Shown one piece after another: positions 47,657-62,990 of a stretch of DNA of 64,000 bases. Under the pieces are notes generated by a model. That model was not told the DNA's origin. It made no database searches and was given only the letters and a program-made list of their open reading frames with translations. Made by a program: the position numbers and the translations under genes. This stretch comes from Sphaerosporella brunnea. Taxonomy: Eukaryota; Ascomycota; Pezizomycetes; Pezizales; Pyronemataceae. Numbering within the stretch: the stretch's first letter is position 1; each line of letters begins with the position of its first letter. The stretch spans positions 36,188 to 100,187 of the forward strand of contig VXIS01000171.1 in the NCBI GenBank assembly GCA_008704415.1. The letters are read 5' to 3'.

Positions 47657-49586
47657 ATGCAGCGCCTCACATCACTGGTAGCTCCTACGCTCCGCTCGCG
47701 AGCACAGCTTTCGCTGCGCCGGTCTACGCGGGTTGTTCTCCGCGCGGGTATCAGCACGCATACCGTTCCTCCCGTAAGTACAACAAGCAACAGCAAAAGA
47801 GTACATTATATTTTATATATATGTGTAAGGGATGGATGGGTTGGGATGGGAAGAATGGGTGATTGGTATTATTTGAATAAAAAATAAATAATAATAAAAA
47901 AACAGCTCAAAGATCCAAGCCTGCTCCAGCCGTATCCGTTCATCGACAACGAGTTCATAATCCCCACGACGCCGTACCAAACCTTCAGCGTGCGCGACCC
48001 GGTCAGCGGCCTCAAGATCGCAGACGTGCCGGACCAAACCGTCGACGACGCCAAGATCGCGATCAAAGCGGCGGCGGCCGCGTTCAAGAGCTTCCGGGCC
48101 ACGGCGGCGCGGGAGCGCAGCAACTGGCTGCGGCGGTGGAACGAGCTGGTGCTCGAGAACAAGGGGGACCTGGCGACGCTGATCACGTGGGAGAACGGGA
48201 AGCCGCTGGCGGACGCGAGCGGCGAGGTTTCGTATGCCGCCAGCTTTTTGGAGTGGTTCGCCGAGGAGGCACCCAGGATCTACGGCGATACCATTCCCGC
48301 CAGCGTCAAGGGGAACAGAGTCCTGACGCAGCGACAACCCGTGGGCGTGTGCGGCCTCATCACGCCCTGGAATTTCCCCGCCGCCATGATCACGAGGAAG
48401 GTTGGCCCCGCCCTGGCCGCTGGGTGCACCGTCGTGATCAAGGCGCCAGCAGAAACGCCGCTGACGAGCCTTGCGCTCGCGGAGCTGGCGCGGAGAGCGG
48501 GGATCCCCAAGGGCGTGATCAACGTCGTCACGACGATGGAGAACACGCCGGATGTCGGCAAGGAGCTGTGCACCAACCCCGTGGTCAAGAAGATCTCGTT
48601 CACGGGGAGCACGGCGGTCGGAAAGCTGCTGATGAAGCAGGCTTCGGGGACGCTGAAGAAGCTGAGCTTCGAGCTCGGCGGCAACGCGCCGTTCATCGTG
48701 TTCGACGATGCGGACCTGGACACCGCCGTCGCTGGCGCCGTAATTTCCAAGTTCCGCAGCTCCGGGCAGACTTGCGTCTGCGCAAACCGTATCTTTGTCC
48801 AGGAAGGCATCTACGACAAGTTTGCCGAGAAATTGGCGATGAAGGTTAAGGAATTTAGGGTCGGCTCGGGGTACCAGGAGGGAACCACCCATGGCCCGTT
48901 GATCCATGAACGTGCCGTGGAAAAGGTGCACGGCCATGTTGTGAATGCGCGCGAAGCGGGCGCCGAGGTGGTGCTGGGCGGGAAGAAGATGGAGCATCTG
49001 GGAATGAACTTCTACGAACCCACCGTGCTGACGGGGATGAGCAAGGAGATGGTACATATAATAAGCCCCTCAGTTCTCAAGTCTCAACTCCCCCACCCCT
49101 CCCTCAAAATCTCACAAAAATAAAATAATATGTAGCTCCTATACAAGGAAGAGACCTTCGGCCCGGTCGCAGCCCTATTCCCCTTCAAGACCGAGAAGGA
49201 AGTGGTCGAGATGGCGAACGACACGGAAGTCGGTCTCGCCGCATACTTCTTCTCGAAGGATTACAGCCGCATCTGGAGGGTTGCCGAGGCTCTGGAAGGT
49301 TTGTTCCTCCCGCCCCCCCCCCCTCCCCGTGAGGGTCAACATACTGATCTGACAAACCCGAACTACCTACCTAGTCGGCATGGTCGGCATCAACACCGGA
49401 TTGATCTCGGACCCTGCCGCGCCGTTTGGCGGCGTTAAGCAATCGGGCTTTGGCCGCGAGGGAAGCAAGTATGGTGTTGATGAGTGTATGTTACCCCCCC
49501 TCCTCCTCCGGCTGGCCTAATCATTCGTAATAGACACGGTCGTCAAGATGATGACGTTTGGTGGAATCGGGGATTTGCAGGAGTAG
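47657..49586 (+). CDS. succinate-semialdehyde dehydrogenase-like ALDH, mitochondrial
   Basis: Five exons, 47657-47773, 47906-49051, 49136-49298, 49375-49485 and 49534-49586, give 529 residues. Exon 1 is a basic, Ser/Arg-rich presequence. The rest is a full aldehyde dehydrogenase: [16 protein letters not shown] for cofactor binding, [11 protein letters not shown], the general base in [18 protein letters not shown] (Glu about 295) and the nucleophile in [12 protein letters not shown] (Cys about 329), then [14 protein letters not shown] and [22 protein letters not shown]. The [11 protein letters not shown] and [10 protein letters not shown] patterns match the GabD/Uga2 group, which oxidises succinate semialdehyde to succinate in the GABA shunt. 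The Cys two residues after the nucleophile is typical of that group. It lies beside the quinate-type locus, but no link is evident. Long antisense ORFs here are shadows. Confidence 0.9.
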
Positions 49587-50015
49587 ACGGCCAGCAGAAA
49601 GTGTGGATTGGATGAAGGGCGTTCCGCGGCTCGAACGCCTTGTGTGGTGCTTGCTCCCCGGGAGCGTTGGTAGTGGAAAAAAGAGGAGCAGATAAACACA
49701 TGCAATCATAACACACGACTGGTAGACTCTGTACACCCAACCGTGACGAGAAAACATGCAGAATATCGAGTACCACGGAGCTATTGGATCTACTAAGTAG
49801 CTTGTCGCTCCTCCGCTGGCTTGCATCTACTATTCACAATCAATCACTCGGTCTTCGCCCCCCCCCCCGTTAACGTTGACAATCTCCAACAATTCTCCAG
49901 CCTATATACATCCCAGATCTTGTAGTCAGACCAGCCATGGTATACACTATTTTTTACATCAAAAAAAATACAAAAAAATACAAACCCAAACGCCCTGCCC
50001 CCATAAGACCGGCCA
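49587..50015. other. convergent intergenic region
   Basis: 3' flanks of the ALDH gene and the fusion gene, which converge. A short C run near 49859-49868 is followed by GTTAACGTTGAC. Confidence 0.6.
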
Positions 50016-53000
50016 CTAAAACAACCCCCTCCCACTCGCCATCCTGACAAAATCAAACGGCACACGTTGCCCCACAAGCACCTCAAGGGCCTGCACCGTC
50101 ATCCTGGCCGCGATATCCGAGATACCATACGTAGTCCATCCGCATGCGGCGGCAACCCCCAGGGGATCACCGCGGCGGGGGCCGTTGGCAAGGTCTACAA
50201 AGACCTTTCCGCCGGTGCTGCCAACCTTGACCGCGGGATGGTTATCGATAAGTTTCAGCAGCGGGTTGATGAGGTGTGCCTGTTCGCTGCACAGCGCCGA
50301 AACGACAACGAACGGCCTTGCAAGCTTCTGCACGGACTCGAAAGAGCTGCATTGCTCGACGCCACGGACGCCATCGACTCGGAAGCCGATGGTGTAGATC
50401 GTGCCGCAGTTGAGCTTGCGGAGCGCCCACATGGCTGTCGAGGCCTCCTCGAACGAGTTGGAGACCACCAGCACTGGCTGGCCTGCATATGCCGACGGCG
50501 CAAAGTCGCGGGTCAGCATTTTCCTGAGCGCTTTGGCGGTTGCGTTGTCGCCGACGACGACGCTTTGGTTTCCGACGGTGCGGACGAAAACCGTGTCCAC
50601 CGCGCCGCTTTCCTGCGCTTCCTCCGTGAACGTGGAGATGAAGGACGGCTGGCCGGTGAGCGGGGGCTGAACTATTGCTCCGCCGAAAGAGAGCTGCCGG
50701 GTTAGAGTTTGCACCATGCTCTCGGAAATCCTGTCCACCGAGACGTAGTGGTGTGGGAGACCAAGCTCATTGAAGCACTTCTCCCAAAACATGCCCAGTG
50801 GGATCGCGCGCGCGTTGCCGATGGTGTAGATTGTCTTCTTCGGCATCTGGCCCATGATGTGCAACGCGCTATTGATCTCTGCGGCACTGAGCTGCCCAGG
50901 CGCAGCGGCCATGGGGAGCAAGGGGTGCGTTGTTGGTGTGAAGAACGGGTTGAGAATGCGGGACAGCTGCCCGACCTGACCGGCGTTAATGGCCAACAAC
51001 GGGTGGTTGAAACTGGCATTGACGCTGGCTCGGAAGAATTCCAGCTCATAGTTATCTGCCAGAGCCGTCGCAAACCCAACAATCTTGATCACATCACCGT
51101 ACGATCTTCCGGTGTGGTAACATCTCAACGTTTCGCCTGAGGGCCATTTCAAGTTGCCGGCGAGATCGTGGTAGGCAGCAATGATTTTGGTTCTACCCTT
51201 GTTCGCTGCCAAATGGTTGCGTATTTCCACAGCAAGACGGATCTCTACATCAATGTATTCGCAACCCCACTGCAATGCCTTCGAGAGGAAGTATTGAGTA
51301 GTCCTCTCATCACTATTAGGGCACCTTCCACCCTCGGCTTGAGAGCGTAGGGTGAAGATGATCGGAAGATCCGTTCGCTGCCGCAGCCACATCATCTGCT
51401 TGGCAACATAGTCGAGGCTAGGAACGGGATTGTAGGGTCCGACACCGGCTCCTTCCCGGAGAAGATCGACACGAAGCTCAACAGCGTCGGCTCCAACTGT
51501 GAGGATGTCGAGGTTGGGGAGGGCTGTCCGAATATCAGGGAAGGTGAGTGCAATGAACGTCGAACGTGGCTTCCGGAGCAGATCTTCGTGAGGCTTCGTT
51601 TGGCCCAGGATAAAGGAAAGGAACCGTGTCAGGTCGTGGCGGGCAAACTCCGCCTTGGGGAAGAGGAACTCATAGTCACAGAGCTGGGATATTGCCTCCG
51701 ACGAGTCATCCAGCGGACCATTCTCAATGCAATGCATGTTGATGCTGATGGACTGAGCCTTGTCCACATTGGCCAACACGGTCGCTGCATCGACAAGTGG
51801 GACACCAACAACAGCGCCCCTCTCCTTGCCATCAGAGCTCCTAGGTCGTCCAAGGATATCTGCAACCAAATCCACAATGTTTTCGCATCCCGGCTCAAAA
51901 ACAACCAATAAGCCTTTGGGCGCCTCTCCGTCTCCAGCTTCTCCAGTGGATTGAGGAGTCAGAGCGGAGCTGACCTTCATTGCGAGATTTCGTCGTTCAT
52001 GGTGGATCGACATACGAATAGGAGCGTTGATGGACGCAAAGTGCTCATAGCCGTTAATTCTCTGGACGATCTCAAAGAAGAACCTGTCCCGGAACTGCTC
52101 GGTCGAAAGGTGCAAGAACTCGCCCTTGTCATCGCGGTCGTACATGATGTTGTAATTTCTCATCTTGGTGATAAAATCAGCCGACAGGTCATAGCGGACC
52201 TGGAGGTCATCGTAATAATTCTGCGGAACTCGAAGGAATCGGTCTTGCGAAGAATTTTTGAGTAACGATGCGACAGTCTCGAAGATGTCGGTCGTTTCGA
52301 AAGCAATATGGTGCACGACGGATCCAGCCGCTTCCCGGACCAATCTTCCAATGCTGGTGTCCTTCTCATCGGAGATATTCAACGGGAAACGAAGGGCCTG
52401 GTTCAGAGAAACCATAGCACGGGATTTGGTCATTCCGTAAGGGTCCTGGAGCTCAACGACCTGCTGCGGCATCATTCCGAATACCGATTTGTAAAACAGC
52501 ACGAACCTATCCATACTCAGCCGGTCCAATGCCTGAGCGATATGGTCGACGGCAGCATATGAAATCTGTGGCCCATTCGAAACGGTGGTTTCAAAATCGA
52601 ACACGAAGTCTTTCTTCCAGAACTCATCGCTGTCGACCAGGTAGATAAGACTCTCATCTGGCGCCTGGATGGCAATTACGTGCTGTTCGCCCTCCCCAAG
52701 CTTGGACGGAGGGACGACTGGGCAACCCAGGCACGCCGCTCTGTCAATAGTTGCCTGAATGTCCTTAACTCGCACCGCAATAGCACAGACAGAAGTGTCA
52801 TGCAGTAGCAAAAAAGCGGATGCAAAGGACTCTGGCTCCGCGTTGATTATGAAAGAAACACCACCTGGCCATCATGAGTAAAAGGAGGAGTGAAAAATTT
52901 GCCGGGAGAGCGCCCACCTTGGCGATACAAACAGACGTTCTTCGATCTATGCCGGGCAACTTTCTGCAAACCCATATCCAAGAACAGCGATTCAAGCTGC

Positions 53001-54025
53001 GAGATCCGGCCTTCGTCCACCGCAAATTCAACATACTCTATCCGCTCTACCTCCGGTAGTGGTGGCAGGATCGAACCCTTGTATAGCTCGGACTGCAAGT
53101 AGAGCAAACTCCTCAGACCGTCTTGTGCTATCCGCTTCGACGGTGCCGCACGGAACTCATCATTGAAGATCTCAAGGGACAGCGGCCCAGTGTAGCCGGC
53201 CTGGATGATCCTCTTCATGAAGGGTATGATAGGGAAGGCGCCCTGGAGCGGGTAGTTACGGTGATGCCGCGAGTAGCTCAGATGATCCATCTTCAATATT
53301 GGGGCATCAGCCAACTGTATGAAGAAAATCTTCTCCGCGGGGACGTTCGCAATCGCCTCGATATCGCTTTGCCTGGAAAAGATGTGGAAAGTATCGAAAC
53401 ATATTCCCAAGTTGGGATGGTCGACTTCCTTCACAAGCTCCCAGGCGTGGTCCCACGTGTAAACATGCTGTGCCCAAGCCAACGCCTCGTACGCTATTCG
53501 CTTGTTGTATTTCGCAGCGAGCTCGGCGGCGGCGCGTAGATCTGACACCAGCTTGTCTTTATCACCAACCTTTGTCGGTGTGAGTTCCCGGTACAACACA
53601 ACTTTAGAGCTGCGAAAAAGATAAAAAAAAAAAAAATAAAAAAAAACACTTACGGAATTTGGCGAGCAATTCGAACACAGTAAAATCAAGTCTGTGTGAA
53701 GTTCATCCATCCACTGAAACTTCTTCTCCAGCCTGTCCAAACTCCGCTTCAACTCCTCGGGAGCAGCCGCACCCTCCAGATCGCGAAAGGGCTGGTACAT
53801 CTCAATCTTCAACCCGAGCTCCTGGCACACATTGTAGACGTCTCGACGCGAGCCGGGGTAGTGCAGCAAATCCGTCTCAAAGATTTCAACGCCGTCAAAA
53901 CCGGCCTCGGCAATGGCCGTCAATTTATCAAGCAGGATTCCGGACACGCAGACGGTCGCAATCGACGTGCGATGCGGCAGCTCTGTCTTCTTCGGCGCAT
54001 TGGGAGACCTGGAGGCGAGATTCAT
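50016..54025 (-). CDS. multidomain 3-dehydroshikimate dehydratase / 3-dehydroquinase fusion with SDH-like C-terminus
   Basis: Three exons, 53654-54025, 52918-53569 and 50016-52864, encode 1,290 residues. Domains: (1) residues 1-290, a sugar-isomerase-type TIM barrel with the 3-dehydroshikimate dehydratase metal ligands Glu152 (YEALAW), Asp183 (FDTFH), Gln209 (IQLAD) and Glu257 (LEIFN); (2) 300-620, an HPPD-like double VOC domain with His449, His527 and Glu606 in metal-site positions, as in bacterial QuiC1; (3) about 655-760, a weak shikimate-kinase-like remnant; (4) 775-1010, a type I 3-dehydroquinase with Glu804, Arg806, Arg848, His907, Schiff-base Lys935, Arg977 and Gln999; (5) 1018-1290, a shikimate-dehydrogenase-like domain lacking the usual Ser, Lys, Asn and Asp. 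Predicted role: dehydroquinate to dehydroshikimate to protocatechuate, in quinate catabolism. Segments 3-5 follow AROM/QutR order. The first intron uses an acceptor at 53570; a nearer one shifts frame. Confidence 0.88.
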
Positions 54026-54908: not shown

Positions 54909-56778
54909 ATGTCAGCCAACCGGGCCGCCGAAACAGTAATAGTCCCGGCAACGCCAGCGGAAATTTACAATTGGCGGAGTAAGTCCTTCCCGCCACAGTC
55001 CGTCCCACTTCCGGTAACGTCGTCGAGAAAGTACCGGTAGTAGTGGGAAGTGAGTGCTGATACCGAGCCAATTGCAATATCTCAGTCTACACTGTGGGAG
55101 CCTGTGCCTGTTCAGGTGCCTTGATATTTGGGTATAACAATGGAGTCATCGGCACCTGTATCACTCTACCATCGTTCCATCGAGACTTCAGCCTTCCAAA
55201 CTATGGCACTTCGGACTACAGCTATATCACAGCCAACATCGTGTCGGCGATGCAAGGCGGCGCCTTCTTCGGCTCGCTGCTTACTTTCCCGATCACCGAG
55301 AAAATCGGGCGGCGATTCTCGCTCACCATTGCCTCGATGATGTTCTTTCTGGGTTCCGCAATAATGGTGCGCCATATGTGACCGAGCGCGTGCCGTGGTT
55401 ATATTTTTCTTATCTTTTCGATCCGCCGTGAACCTCAAAGTCCAAAAGAGACCATCTTTGTTAACTAGAAATGTAGACATTCTCTGATGGCTCATTGCCC
55501 ATGATGTACGCCGGCCGCTTCGTGGGCGGCCTAGGCGTCGGCCCCGTCTCCCTTCTGGTTCCGATGTATATCAGCGAATTAGCACCGCCAGACATCCGCG
55601 GGTTCCTAGTCGGGATGTTCGAGATCGGCAATCAACTTTCGTCCATGGCCGGGTTCTGGGTAAACTTTGCAGTGCAAAGCACCATGAAAGAATCCTCCGC
55701 GCAATGGATGTTATCGCTTGGGATCCAGTTGATTCCCGGGGGTCTCCTGTTTCTCGCCAGCATCTTCATTCTTCCCGAAAGCCCACGCTTCCACGTCAAA
55801 AAGTTCAAGCCGGAGCAAGCCCTAAAGACCCTAGTGTGGCTGAGGCAACTACCGCCGGACCATGAATACGTCGTCACTGAACTGGGAGCGATGCAACAAC
55901 AGGTTGACCGCGAGCTAGTGCAGGCACCTTCGAAGCTAAGGATGATGCGGGAGCTTTTCTGGAGGGGAAATCGCAATAGGCTGGGAATGGGGATGCTTCT
56001 GATGATCTGCCAAAACACCACGTTTGTTGCCCTTATCCTCCATAGCCACAACAAACCCTGACCGGTAAACAGCGGTATCAACGCTTTGAACTTCTACTCT
56101 CCCTCCATCTTCCGTTCAATCGGCTTCACGGGCATCAGCGTCTCCCTCTTCGCCTCCGGAATGTGGGCGCTGATAAAATCCGCCTCAACAATCCTCAGCA
56201 TGCTCTTCCTCGTGGACCGTCTCGGGCGGCGGAAGCTGCTTATTCTCGGCGCCATCGGAATCGCAGTAACAATGATCTACATCGGCAGCTTCATCACCGT
56301 CTCCGGGGTGGATCCAAACCATCCCGGTGCAAAAACGCCTGCTGCTTGGTTGGCGATAGTATGTCTCTACCTCTTCGCCGTGTTCTTTTGTATCGGCTGG
56401 AACTCGATCCCGTGGATTTACTGCTCCGAGATTTTCCCGAATCGCCTCAGGAGCTTGTGTGTCAGCATCACGACCGCCACGCAGTGGCTTGCGTGTTTTG
56501 CTGTGGCTAGAGCTACTCCGTATATGCTGGAGGGTATTAGGGGTGGCACTTATTACTTCTTTGGAGCCTGTATTGTGTTGACGGTTATTTGGGTTTGGTT
56601 TTGTGTACCCGAGACTAAGGGCGTTACGCTGGAGGATATGGATTTGCTGTTTGGAGTGCCGCATGGCGAAGGGAGAGATCCACAGGTGACGGCGGAGGCC
56701 CAGCAGGTGGGAGATGTGAAGGATGAAAAAGAGGAAGTTGAGCGCAAGGCTACGGATATAGCGGGGCCGAAGTTTTGA
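54909..56778 (+). CDS. MFS sugar-porter, quinate permease-like (QutD/QA-Y type)
   Basis: Four exons, 54909-54978, 55086-55366, 55477-56021 and 56073-56778, give 533 residues, the usual length of QutD. The protein is a twelve-helix sugar-porter transporter of the plasma membrane. Marks: PAEIYNWRIY just before helix 1, as in fungal quinate permeases; GYNNGVIGTCITLPSF; EKIGRRFS after helix 2; MYAGRFVGGLGVGPVSLLVPMYISELAPPDIRG; LPESPRF; INALNFYSPSIFRSIG; DRLGRRKLL; and the closing VPETKGVTLEDMD. Exon 3 uses a TAG acceptor at 55476, giving TFSDGSLPMMYAGR. The quinate assignment rests on the N-terminal motif, overall pattern and head-to-head placement with a dehydroshikimate dehydratase/dehydroquinase gene. 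A related sugar or sugar-acid substrate cannot be excluded. Confidence 0.85.
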
Positions 56779-60446: not shown

Positions 60447-62990
60447 ATGTCGTTACCAATTCCCGCCGGCAGCAGCAGCACGGCAGCAGCCCAGCAGCAG
60501 CCGGCGGGCACGCTTCCGATTTCGAAGTTACCCGCGACACGCCGATATTCGAGCGAGGCACGTGAGAATATGAATTGCAAGAGCTGTCGAAAGCGCAAGG
60601 TGAGGGCAATGAGTTCGTGTCGTTGTAGTGCATGGAAGAGTATTCCTGACACTTCGAGGGACTCTGCGCAGATCAAGTGTTCGAGGACCAGACCTTCCTG
60701 TAACGCTTGCGATGTATTTCGCTGCGAATGCATCTATGGTACATCACTTTTTCTTTTTCGACCTCTACGTTGTGGCATCTGCAGGGAGCTGAGTCGTGAC
60801 GGCTAGACGCGGTTCCGAAGAAGCGCGGTCCTAAGACCGAGGTGTTGGAAGAGCTCCTGAAGCGCATCGACGGCCTTGAAAAACGATTGGGCGAGAGTGA
60901 AGGTGGCACCAATGGGAATGCAACTGGAGGATCACCAACCGCTGAGCTGAGCAATACCAGCAGCACCGCGTCGAGGAAACGGCATGCTGCATCATCGCCG
61001 GAGGAGATATCTGGGCAATCGCCTGTGGCCAGTGTCACCCCGTCAGGAAGTGTGACAACTACAGACGAAAGATTGGTGCGGAAGCTAGTAGACGTCTTCT
61101 TCGAGCGATGTAGTGGAAAGCCATACACCCTTTTCCATGAAGGGATGTTTCGGCAACACTGGGCAGAGGGAAGAGTTCCTGACCATATACTTGACACGCT
61201 CTGTGCGGTCGCCATCAGGTATATGATATAGAAGCAAGCAATTATGATGGCTCCCTGTTAATATTTCACAGATATACACCTGCTCATGACCTGGGCGCGC
61301 TGTCAGCGCATGAATACAGCGAAATGTTCGCAACACGCGCAAGGAGACAAGTAGATTCCGACGAGCCTTCGCTCGAGAATTTGCAGTCGCTGCTGCTTCT
61401 TTCTATGACTTACTATGCGATGGGATACGGCAAAAAGAGCTTCATGCAAATGGGTAGCTTTTTGAATTTCGCTTTTTTGCTCTGACGCTGATCATTGTAG
61501 GCTCCGCTATCCGTATGACCCTCGCGCTCGATCTTCACCGAGAACTGCCCTCACCCCATCTTGCATCACCACTGGAGCGAGAAATCCGTCGCCGCGTTTT
61601 CTGGACCTGCTACATGATGGACCGCTTCACCGTTTGTGGCTCTGTTCGTCCACCTTGTTTCTCTGACCGCTCAATATACCTGCGGTTGCCCTGTACTGAG
61701 GACTCTTTCCGCCGGGGAACCCCATCAGAGTCTCCGTTTTTCTCCGAAAACGGCGTGGGCTTTGGCATTGGCATTCCGATTTCCAACAGTAATCTCCTTG
61801 TAGACGTCGTGCGTATATTAGGACGAACAATACGCTATACGCAATCCGGCGGTGTGAAGGGCGATTCGCACTTCCCGTGGCATGCGGCATCCAATCTCTC
61901 CCGGATACGGACCGAACTCAATGCGTGGGCATCCTCACGAGACCTTCGTGAAGGTGTTCCAGCAACCCCTGATGCCACCAGCCTTTTCCTTGCCCGCAGT
62001 GTCTGGCATGTAACTCATTGTATCATGTATCGCAACTTCCTCCCCATCGATCTGACTGAACTCGATGGCAACGGAACGCAACAAGCCTGGCAAATGGAGG
62101 CTACAAAAGTGTGTTTCCAGCACGCGAATGCCCTGGTTGACTTAATATCTGTTGCTGCGATAACCCCCACCATCGAATGGCCAGCCTTTGCCGGCTTTTG
62201 TCTCACGACGGCTGCTAGTGTCCTAGTCCATGGCGTCTTCTATAAGGGCTCTGAGGCGTTCCGTCGCTGCCGAGACAACCTGGTAACAGTGCTGACACAA
62301 GCACGGGCGTTAACGGGTCTCTGGTCATGTATGCGGCAGCAGCTTTATATGCTTAAGAAGCTCTACCGTTGCCATGAGAAGCTGGTGTCTTCATATTCCC
62401 CGGACAAAAGACCATCTAGTGTTTTTCATCTTGACGACTTTTATGCCCGCTACGCAGCACACGATTGCGGGTTCGAGGCTTCTCATGTCCCGTTCTTTGA
62501 TGCGTCGGATGAGGATGCCGATTTGTAACTTTCCCCCATCCGGTTCGGTATCGGTGTCTGTGGCTAAAACACTATCAGATCGTCTTTAGGCGTGTCGTCT
62601 GTTCCGGTTCAGCAGACCAATGTCTTCAATCCACTGCCTCCTCCGCTACTCCAACCGCCGCAATCGCAGCAACCGCAACAGCCGGCACAGTATCTCGAAG
62701 AATATCCGTTCTCGCCAACCACGCCACAGGATTTGCAATTTCTGTCTGTTGCGAATTTCGGGGGTCATGGTTATGATTATGACGACTTTTCGCAAGGCTT
62801 CTTGCAGCTGCAGTCGGTTGGGGATGACTCGACACAGGACATGAGCGGTATCGAGCAGCAAAGAGATCCATTGTTGAGTATGCTGGCAGAGATGGCAGAA
62901 AGGGATGGGTTCGAGCCTGGGGCACCGGCGGAGGAGGGCCGGGAAGGCGATGATGTCTGGATGGGAATCAGTAACGGGGATGGTCAATAG
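60447..62990 (+). CDS. Zn2Cys6 fungal-specific transcription factor
   Basis: Six exons, 60447-60599, 60672-60738, 60807-61218, 61272-61453, 61501-62524 and 62579-62990, encode 749 residues. The binuclear zinc cluster uses Cys44, Cys47, Cys54, Cys61, Cys64 and Cys71 (C-x2-C-x6-C-x6-C-x2-C-x6-C) and is split by an intron after CRKRK. A basic linker VPKKRGPKTEV and a short coiled coil LEELLKRIDGLEKRLGES follow, suggesting a dimer. The fungal_trans domain spans about 195-440: LVDVFFERCSGKPYTLFHEGMF, LQSLLLLSMTYYAMG, GSAIRMTLALDLHRE, EREIRRRVFWTCYMMDR. The C-terminus is Gln/Pro- then acid-rich, as in an activation region. If the last intron is not spliced the protein stops at 62528 and loses 137 residues. 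It is not an obvious QutA orthologue. Its position near the permease and fusion genes makes it a candidate regulator of them. Confidence 0.88.

Follow-up and report, generated by a model that had tools for sequence, protein, structure and literature searches.

Is a fungal protein that joins a dehydroshikimate dehydratase to AROM-like domains a catabolic enzyme, a sensor of a catabolic intermediate, or both? The question is raised by a gene of Sphaerosporella brunnea lying in the window, by which we mean the whole 64,000-nucleotide stretch of DNA analysed. The gene and its exons are as follows.

50016..54025, minus strand: fusion gene, predicted QuiC1-type dehydroshikimate dehydratase plus GaaX-like repressor half, 1,290 aa (spliced translation; identity to P0001)
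53654..54025, minus strand: exon 1, residues 1-124 (spliced translation)
53570..53653, minus strand: intron 1, 84 nt, stop-free and in frame (GTAAGT donor; missing from relatives' models)
52918..53569, minus strand: exon 2 (spliced translation)
52865..52917, minus strand: intron 2, 53 nt (spliced translation; relatives' models)
50016..52864, minus strand: exon 3, a single open frame spanning the VOC/repressor-like junction (open-frame list, spliced translation)

In the spliced translation both introns are of the GT..AG type and the joined exons make up 3,873 nt, corresponding to 1,290 codons and a stop. The predicted product matched the NCBI hypothetical protein FN846DRAFT_960877 of S. brunnea (P0001) with 100% identity over 100% of its length, the deposited model being also a prediction. 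The three exons, in-frame splicing and 1,290 residues proposed by an earlier, sequence-only reading of this DNA were thus confirmed. In the alignment with relatives, P0002, an unspliced-looking frame, had extra residues exactly at both intron positions, and the models from Geopyxis (P0004), Rhizina (P0005) and Orbilia (P0011) had none at either, which supports both introns. Because intron 1 is stop-free and in frame, its retention would lengthen the protein without breaking the frame. Pfam matched the full product to AP_endonuc_2 (residues 36-279), Glyoxalase_5 (301-431), Glyoxalase (458-559) and DHquinase_I (778-1009; E 2.6e-52), with Shikimate_dh_N below the cut-off (E 0.058).

The junction between the VOC and repressor-like parts (residues ~634-655) falls inside exon 3, within one 951-codon open frame, so the fusion is independent of any predicted intron; there is no stop between the HPPD and dehydroquinase parts that would separate two genes. 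Since the deposited gene model is a prediction, annotation might have merged two neighbouring genes, but this is very improbable: the 951-codon frame contains the junction, the shorter frames P0006-P0010 and P0013, which start in or near the VOC domain, likewise continue into the dehydroquinase part, and the linker region is similar across the Pezizomycetes and Orbiliomycetes rows aligned. We therefore rejected a gene-model artefact, the junction being common to relatives.

The N-terminal half contains two domains.

53105..53920, minus strand: TIM-barrel dehydroshikimate dehydratase domain, residues 36-279 (Pfam AP_endonuc_2, E 1.3e-43; 10 QuiC1/QsuB active-site residues)
51990..53041, minus strand: HPPD-like VOC domain, residues 301-633, with H449, H527 and E606 (Pfam, NCBIfam profile, 5hmq alignment, residue check)

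This order, a TIM barrel followed by an HPPD-like VOC domain, is the two-domain layout of QuiC1. The QuiC profile NF042435 matched residues 20-633 (E 3.8e-198), at a score of 659.9 bits, below its equivalog cut-off of 1200 bits, in a library built for bacterial and archaeal annotation. Residues 20-627 aligned to chain residues 5-622 of the QuiC1 structure 5hmq (637 residues). H449, H527 and E606, which we take to occupy the HPPD metal-ligand positions, are kept at these positions in all nine fusions aligned. The ten QuiC1/QsuB active-site residues (list from PMC7442255, which is represented here, like the other papers cited, by excerpts) were all found in the window protein, placed by motif; relative to QsuB, the numbering of nine is shifted uniformly by 18 and that of Arg64 by 17. 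In the nine aligned fusions the residue is kept wherever a row has a letter at these columns, with the exception of one alanine in the Ser206 column. The profile match, the structural alignment and these residues bear out the earlier assignment of the two N-terminal domains, and on this evidence the N-terminal half (residues 20-633) is predicted to be a 3-dehydroshikimate dehydratase of the QuiC1 type that retains the active-site residues and probably makes protocatechuate from 3-dehydroshikimate. The HPPD-like domain of QsuB was described as lacking activity on protocatechuate and a role in oligomerisation was proposed for it, and fungal dehydroshikimate dehydratases were classed as single-domain enzymes (PMC7442255). 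Among the best 120 of 7,996 matches to the N-terminal half, few have an organism name, and those are bacterial. In the N-half tree, which has no true root, several long branches and an unresolved Saitoella row, P0212, a standalone fungal-looking protein of the QuiC1 type, was placed among the fusions (value of 99). We therefore make no claim that the N-terminal half was acquired horizontally.

The C-terminal half (residues ~655-1290) has the fold of the last three domains of AROM.

51579..51926, minus strand: shikimate-kinase-like remnant, residues ~655-770, without Walker A, the least conserved part among fusions
50862..51557, minus strand: type I dehydroquinase domain, residues 778-1009, with E804, R806, R848, E852, H907, K935, R977 and Q999
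50019..50843, minus strand: shikimate-dehydrogenase-like domain, residues ~1016-1290, having lost the catalytic Lys/Asp and the nucleotide motif; C-terminal tail conserved

It is thus an AROM-derived block of shikimate-kinase-like, dehydroquinase and shikimate-dehydrogenase (SDH)-like parts from which the kinase and dehydrogenase catalytic motifs are gone, and the fold and the loss of Walker A agree with the AROM-like domain order and kinase-like remnant of the sequence-only reading. The kinase-like segment, folded alone without an alignment, gave a pLDDT of 40, and this model was set aside. We take the type I dehydroquinase catalytic set to be E46, R48, R82, E86, H143, K170, R213 and Q236; the titles of PDB entries for type I dehydroquinases name mutants of E86, K170 and Q236. 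All eight are present in P0001, including the Schiff-base lysine; seven are kept in 16/16 fusions and E86 in 14/16, these 16 rows including near relatives and 7 shorter frames and thus not representing 16 independent cases. The intact dehydroquinase site of the fusion is equally compatible with an enzyme and with a sensor.

Active-site residues that are intact, a long open frame and an identity to P0002 that is 90-94% in four domains and still 83% for the kinase-like segment make it extremely improbable that the gene is decaying without function, as the weak conservation of the kinase-like part (23% to Saitoella) might suggest.

The main rival to a regulatory function is a plain bifunctional catabolic enzyme, in which the dehydroquinase domain would form dehydroshikimate and the dehydratase would convert it to protocatechuate, with no regulation. 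This would be in keeping with the catalytic residues listed above and with the dehydroquinase domain being the best-conserved part toward the distant fusions P0015 (Saitoella, 65%) and P0016 (62%). However, GaaX-like proteins keep the same residues, the site being intact in nearly all of them (K170 is Lys in 122/128 rows), so enzymes and regulators are not separated in this way, and the kinase- and SDH-like parts have been kept as folds without catalytic motifs. Furthermore, two positions (AroD numbering) are replaced in the fusions: S21 is Ala in 15/16 and Thr in 1/16 but Ser in 128/128 GaaX-like rows, and M205 is Ala in 16/16 but Met in 127/128, so the ligand or the chemistry may differ. Conserved residues by themselves do not tell catalysis from covalent sensing, and we therefore keep this rival, which we consider possible but on balance unlikely.

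QutR, GaaX and TanX are fungal repressors described as AROM-related in the literature. Among the best 120 of 1,017 matches listed, the standalone proteins nearest to the C-terminal half are GaaX-like, with 40-51% identity, in a set that contains neither QutR, QA-1S and TanX nor the GaaX of A. niger itself. By these comparisons the C-terminal half is closest to GaaX-like repressors among the proteins retrieved, a label reached through relatives and not through A. niger GaaX. We call the standalone relatives GaaX-like because one source gives this name to P0020, because P0022 and P0024 continue from the repressor into a Zn(II)2Cys6 activator of the same orientation, because PF01487 is the only AROM domain that Pfam sees in them, and because most of them have V, L and V at the positions V653, L676 and V684, at which mutations inactivate GaaX (PMC6528562). 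The kinase and SDH domains were not recognised in GaaX, and A. niger gaaR and gaaX are arranged head to tail, the other three modules having a potential bidirectional promoter (PMC10512348). If GaaX is taken to be 698 residues long, as PMC6528562 implies, and the C-terminal ends to be equal, P0001 has V, L and V at the three positions, which were matched in 10, 12 and 11 of 12 standalone proteins compared; for the fusions the counts were 7, 6 and 6 out of 7, P0016 departing at two of the positions. Loss of GaaX or QutR renders the target genes constitutive, and the inducer (2-keto-3-deoxy-L-galactonate or dehydroquinate) has been proposed to bind the repressor, freeing the activator (PMC10512348, PMC6528562). 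The sequence-only reading was right to raise a sensor on the polypeptide as a possibility.

The neighbouring genes also bear on this choice.

60447..62990, plus strand: GaaR-like Zn(II)2Cys6 activator, 745 aa, the end computed from this length (Zn_clus and Fungal_trans; best genomic match of the P0024 activator part)
60447-60599, 60672-60738, 60807-61218, 61272-61453, 61501-62523 and the last from 62590, plus strand: proposed exons of the activator
54909..56778, plus strand: sugar-porter-family transporter, divergent from the fusion and lying between it and the activator (span given from a proposed start codon)

The GaaR-like gene is 6.4 kb from the fusion and divergent from it, with the transporter and a further ~3.7 kb between them. 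P0024 is an Aspergillus pseudoustus activator joined to a GaaX-like repressor; when its activator part was compared with the whole genome, the best match was the activator in the window (292 bits), and nothing outside the locus exceeded 37 bits. The window's own activator, compared with the genome, had its next match elsewhere at 50 bits. The nearby Zn(II)2Cys6 gene is likely, by similarity, to be the matching activator for the fusion. A scan with the consensus that we assumed for each element found neither the QutA-type palindrome nor the galacturonate-response element more often than in shuffles, and the lone match near the gene (54970-54978) is inside the first exon proposed for the transporter or at its end. 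These motif results, the divergent orientation and the intervening transporter weigh against control of this activator by the fusion.

QutE/QA-2, the catabolic dehydroquinase of model fungi, is a type II enzyme. The S. brunnea genome has one type II dehydroquinase (contig C62), close to a shikimate/quinate-dehydrogenase-like gene, and one further DHquinase_I gene, which is AROM; a single-domain dehydratase-like protein on contig C111 is 27% identical to the first domain of the fusion. Quinate catabolism might thus proceed even if the fusion had no enzymatic part in it. The type II dehydroquinase and the GaaR-like activator close by both weigh against the plain two-step enzyme, and the C-terminal half need not be the catabolic dehydroquinase suggested by the sequence-only reading; two consecutive quinate steps on one polypeptide may nevertheless occur, since the dehydroquinase residues are intact. 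The same residue conservation, taken with the activator neighbourhood, would also suit a protein that performs both catalytic steps and represses, a trigger enzyme like bacterial PutA; we regard this combination as doubtful. We make no claim that the galacturonate pathway is absent, as the DHDPS and MR_MLE families are present in the genome and no GaaB/GaaC reference was used.

The architecture is not confined to this species. In a full-query search yielding 46 proteins, nine carried both AP_endonuc_2 and DHquinase_I (seven of them from Sphaerosporella, Geopyxis, Rhizina, Orbilia, Drechslerella, Dactylella and Saitoella), and seven further rows (P0006-P0010, P0013 and P0016) were shorter frames starting in or near the VOC domain; AROM proteins among the 46 had 29-42% identity over 13-42% of the query. 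The fusion therefore recurs in three ascomycete groups, namely Pezizomycetes (Sphaerosporella, of the Pyronemataceae, and Rhizina), Orbiliomycetes (Orbilia) and Saitoella (Taphrinomycotina); Pycnora, of the standalone group, belongs to leotiomyceta, and the remaining taxon placements of fusion and standalone rows are taken from general knowledge. The search of other Pezizomycotina suggested earlier was thus positive in Pezizomycetes and Orbiliomycetes, and a lone new architecture was rejected. That the architecture was unfamiliar holds insofar as we found no description of it in open-licence PubMed Central papers; the architecture is not unique.

The C-half tree (78 rows: 16 fusions, 15/15 longer and 38/113 shorter GaaX-like proteins and 9/15 AROM) was rooted on AROM, with a long root branch and QutR-type and TanX rows absent. 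Fusions and GaaX-like proteins split together from AROM (100/100), the GaaX-like rows formed one clade (100/100), and the fusions formed a weak clade beside it (83/40; branch side in 82% of 200 bootstrap trees). This tree leans to the fusions and GaaX-like proteins as sister groups, GaaX not being nested in the fusions. P0034, in which Pfam found AP_endonuc_2 and glyoxalase, is not an AROM protein and was left out. The presence of the fusion in both Saitoella and Pezizomycotina favours by parsimony an old fusion, unless it has moved sideways, and, as the standalone GaaX-like proteins form one clade beside the fusions, an enzyme half may have been lost on the way to GaaX. Tentatively, and as a rather unlikely scenario, the fused form may be older, the Aspergillus/Neurospora lineage having dropped the enzyme half to leave GaaX; both forms would then be Schiff-base keto-acid sensors, covalent or turning over, on the retained dehydroquinase lysine, and not dead enzymes.

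Our preferred reading, to which we give a probability of about 0.55, is that a dehydroshikimate dehydratase is tethered to a GaaX-type inducer sensor/repressor, so that catalysis and gene switching may be functionally coupled. The activities, activator binding, ligand and feedback that we infer are these. The N-terminal half would convert 3-dehydroshikimate to protocatechuate, and the C-terminal half, a remodelled form of the last three domains of AROM, would keep the GaaR-like activator encoded nearby in an inactive state until a keto acid of the pathway occupied the dehydroquinase-type pocket, probably bound to K935 as a Schiff base, and freed the activator. The tethered dehydratase would drain the same intermediate pool, and the protein would thus report and lower its own inducer. 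If so, a single protein would link metabolic flux to gene regulation in the catabolism of aromatic acids. A natural fusion of a pathway enzyme and a repressor-like protein, found in three early-branching ascomycete groups and here with a likely matching activator nearby, offers a concrete form for study, and the intact dehydroquinase residues of GaaX-like proteins make the assumption that they are inactive directly testable through one lysine.

The fusion resembles several known systems in part. It shares with AROM the fold of the last three domains and most dehydroquinase catalytic residues, but it is without the DHQ synthase and EPSP synthase parts and has lost the kinase and SDH motifs, so that the five active domains of AROM are not found; in this genome AROM has a gene to itself, and its product shows 34% identity across residues 107-621 of the C-terminal half. 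With the bacterial dehydratases QuiC1/QsuB (5hmq) it shares the full-length TIM barrel and HPPD-like domain and the ten active-site residues, and its N-terminal half is 46-50% identical to full-length relatives among the matches listed; it differs in being fungal, in the repressor-like protein joined to its C-terminus, and in scoring 660 against the 1200 bits of the NCBIfam cut-off. If both halves were active, they would carry out the same two reactions as QutC/QA-4 and QutE/QA-2, which are encoded by separate genes in model fungi (PMC12610400). With QutR/QA-1S, set beside the fusion by literature description, it has in common the AROM-derived domain order, and the fused dehydratase ties it to the quinate pathway, whereas QutR/QA-1S is standalone. 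The likeness to GaaX comprises the AROM-type SK/DHQ/SDH order with only PF01487 above the Pfam cut-off in the C-terminal half, the degenerate kinase and SDH motifs and the conserved C-terminal tail. However, GaaX is a standalone protein of about 700 residues (about 670-750 for GaaX-type repressors), whereas the fusion has 1,290, with a dehydratase of ~630 residues in front and S21 and M205 altered. A gene for a Zn(II)2Cys6 activator lies in the vicinity here too, but a transporter gene separates it from the fusion, and the two diverge, like the A. niger pairs qutA/qutR and tanR/tanX and unlike gaaR/gaaX (PMC10512348).

Intron 1 of the fusion gene (window 53570-53653) comprises 28 codons, in frame and without a stop, so a longer fusion protein produced through retention of this intron is possible. 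The fusion is adjoined on its downstream side, on the opposite strand, by the following gene:

47888-49600 (window), + strand, aldehyde dehydrogenase (NCBIfam match below cut-off)

The top NCBIfam match of this gene, below cut-off, was succinate-semialdehyde dehydrogenase.

Two further proteins contain QuiC-type domains. P0212, a standalone QuiC1-type protein of 640 residues with intron-like insertions, is probably of fungal origin, and it was placed together with the fusion N-halves in the N-half tree. P0034 (945 residues) has the Pfam domains of QuiC and an N-terminal start resembling the end of a shikimate dehydrogenase; it may represent a further fusion, or else have arisen as an artefact of the reading frame.

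Candidate quinate-pathway genes were also identified on other contigs of the S. brunnea genome:

L003, contig C62, type II dehydroquinase
L010:702-1685, contig C62, shikimate/quinate-dehydrogenase-like gene
L013:1441-2487, contig C111, single-domain AP_endonuc_2 frame of 349 codons

The two C62 genes lie about 1 kb or less apart, and could form a small quinate cluster separate from the fusion locus. The C111 frame may encode a dehydroshikimate dehydratase of the QutC/QA-4 type. On contig C160 (33483-37041), MR_MLE dehydratase-like and DHDPS aldolase-like matches were found less than 4 kb apart, a possible sugar-acid catabolic cluster.

Among the matches listed, the standalone GaaX-like repressors (P0017-P0031 and P0047-P0159) have dehydroquinase catalytic residues that are intact as judged from the alignment, with the Schiff-base lysine (K170, AroD numbering) present in 122 of the 128 rows. 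This counts against the published suggestion that enzymatic functions were lost in GaaX-like repressors.
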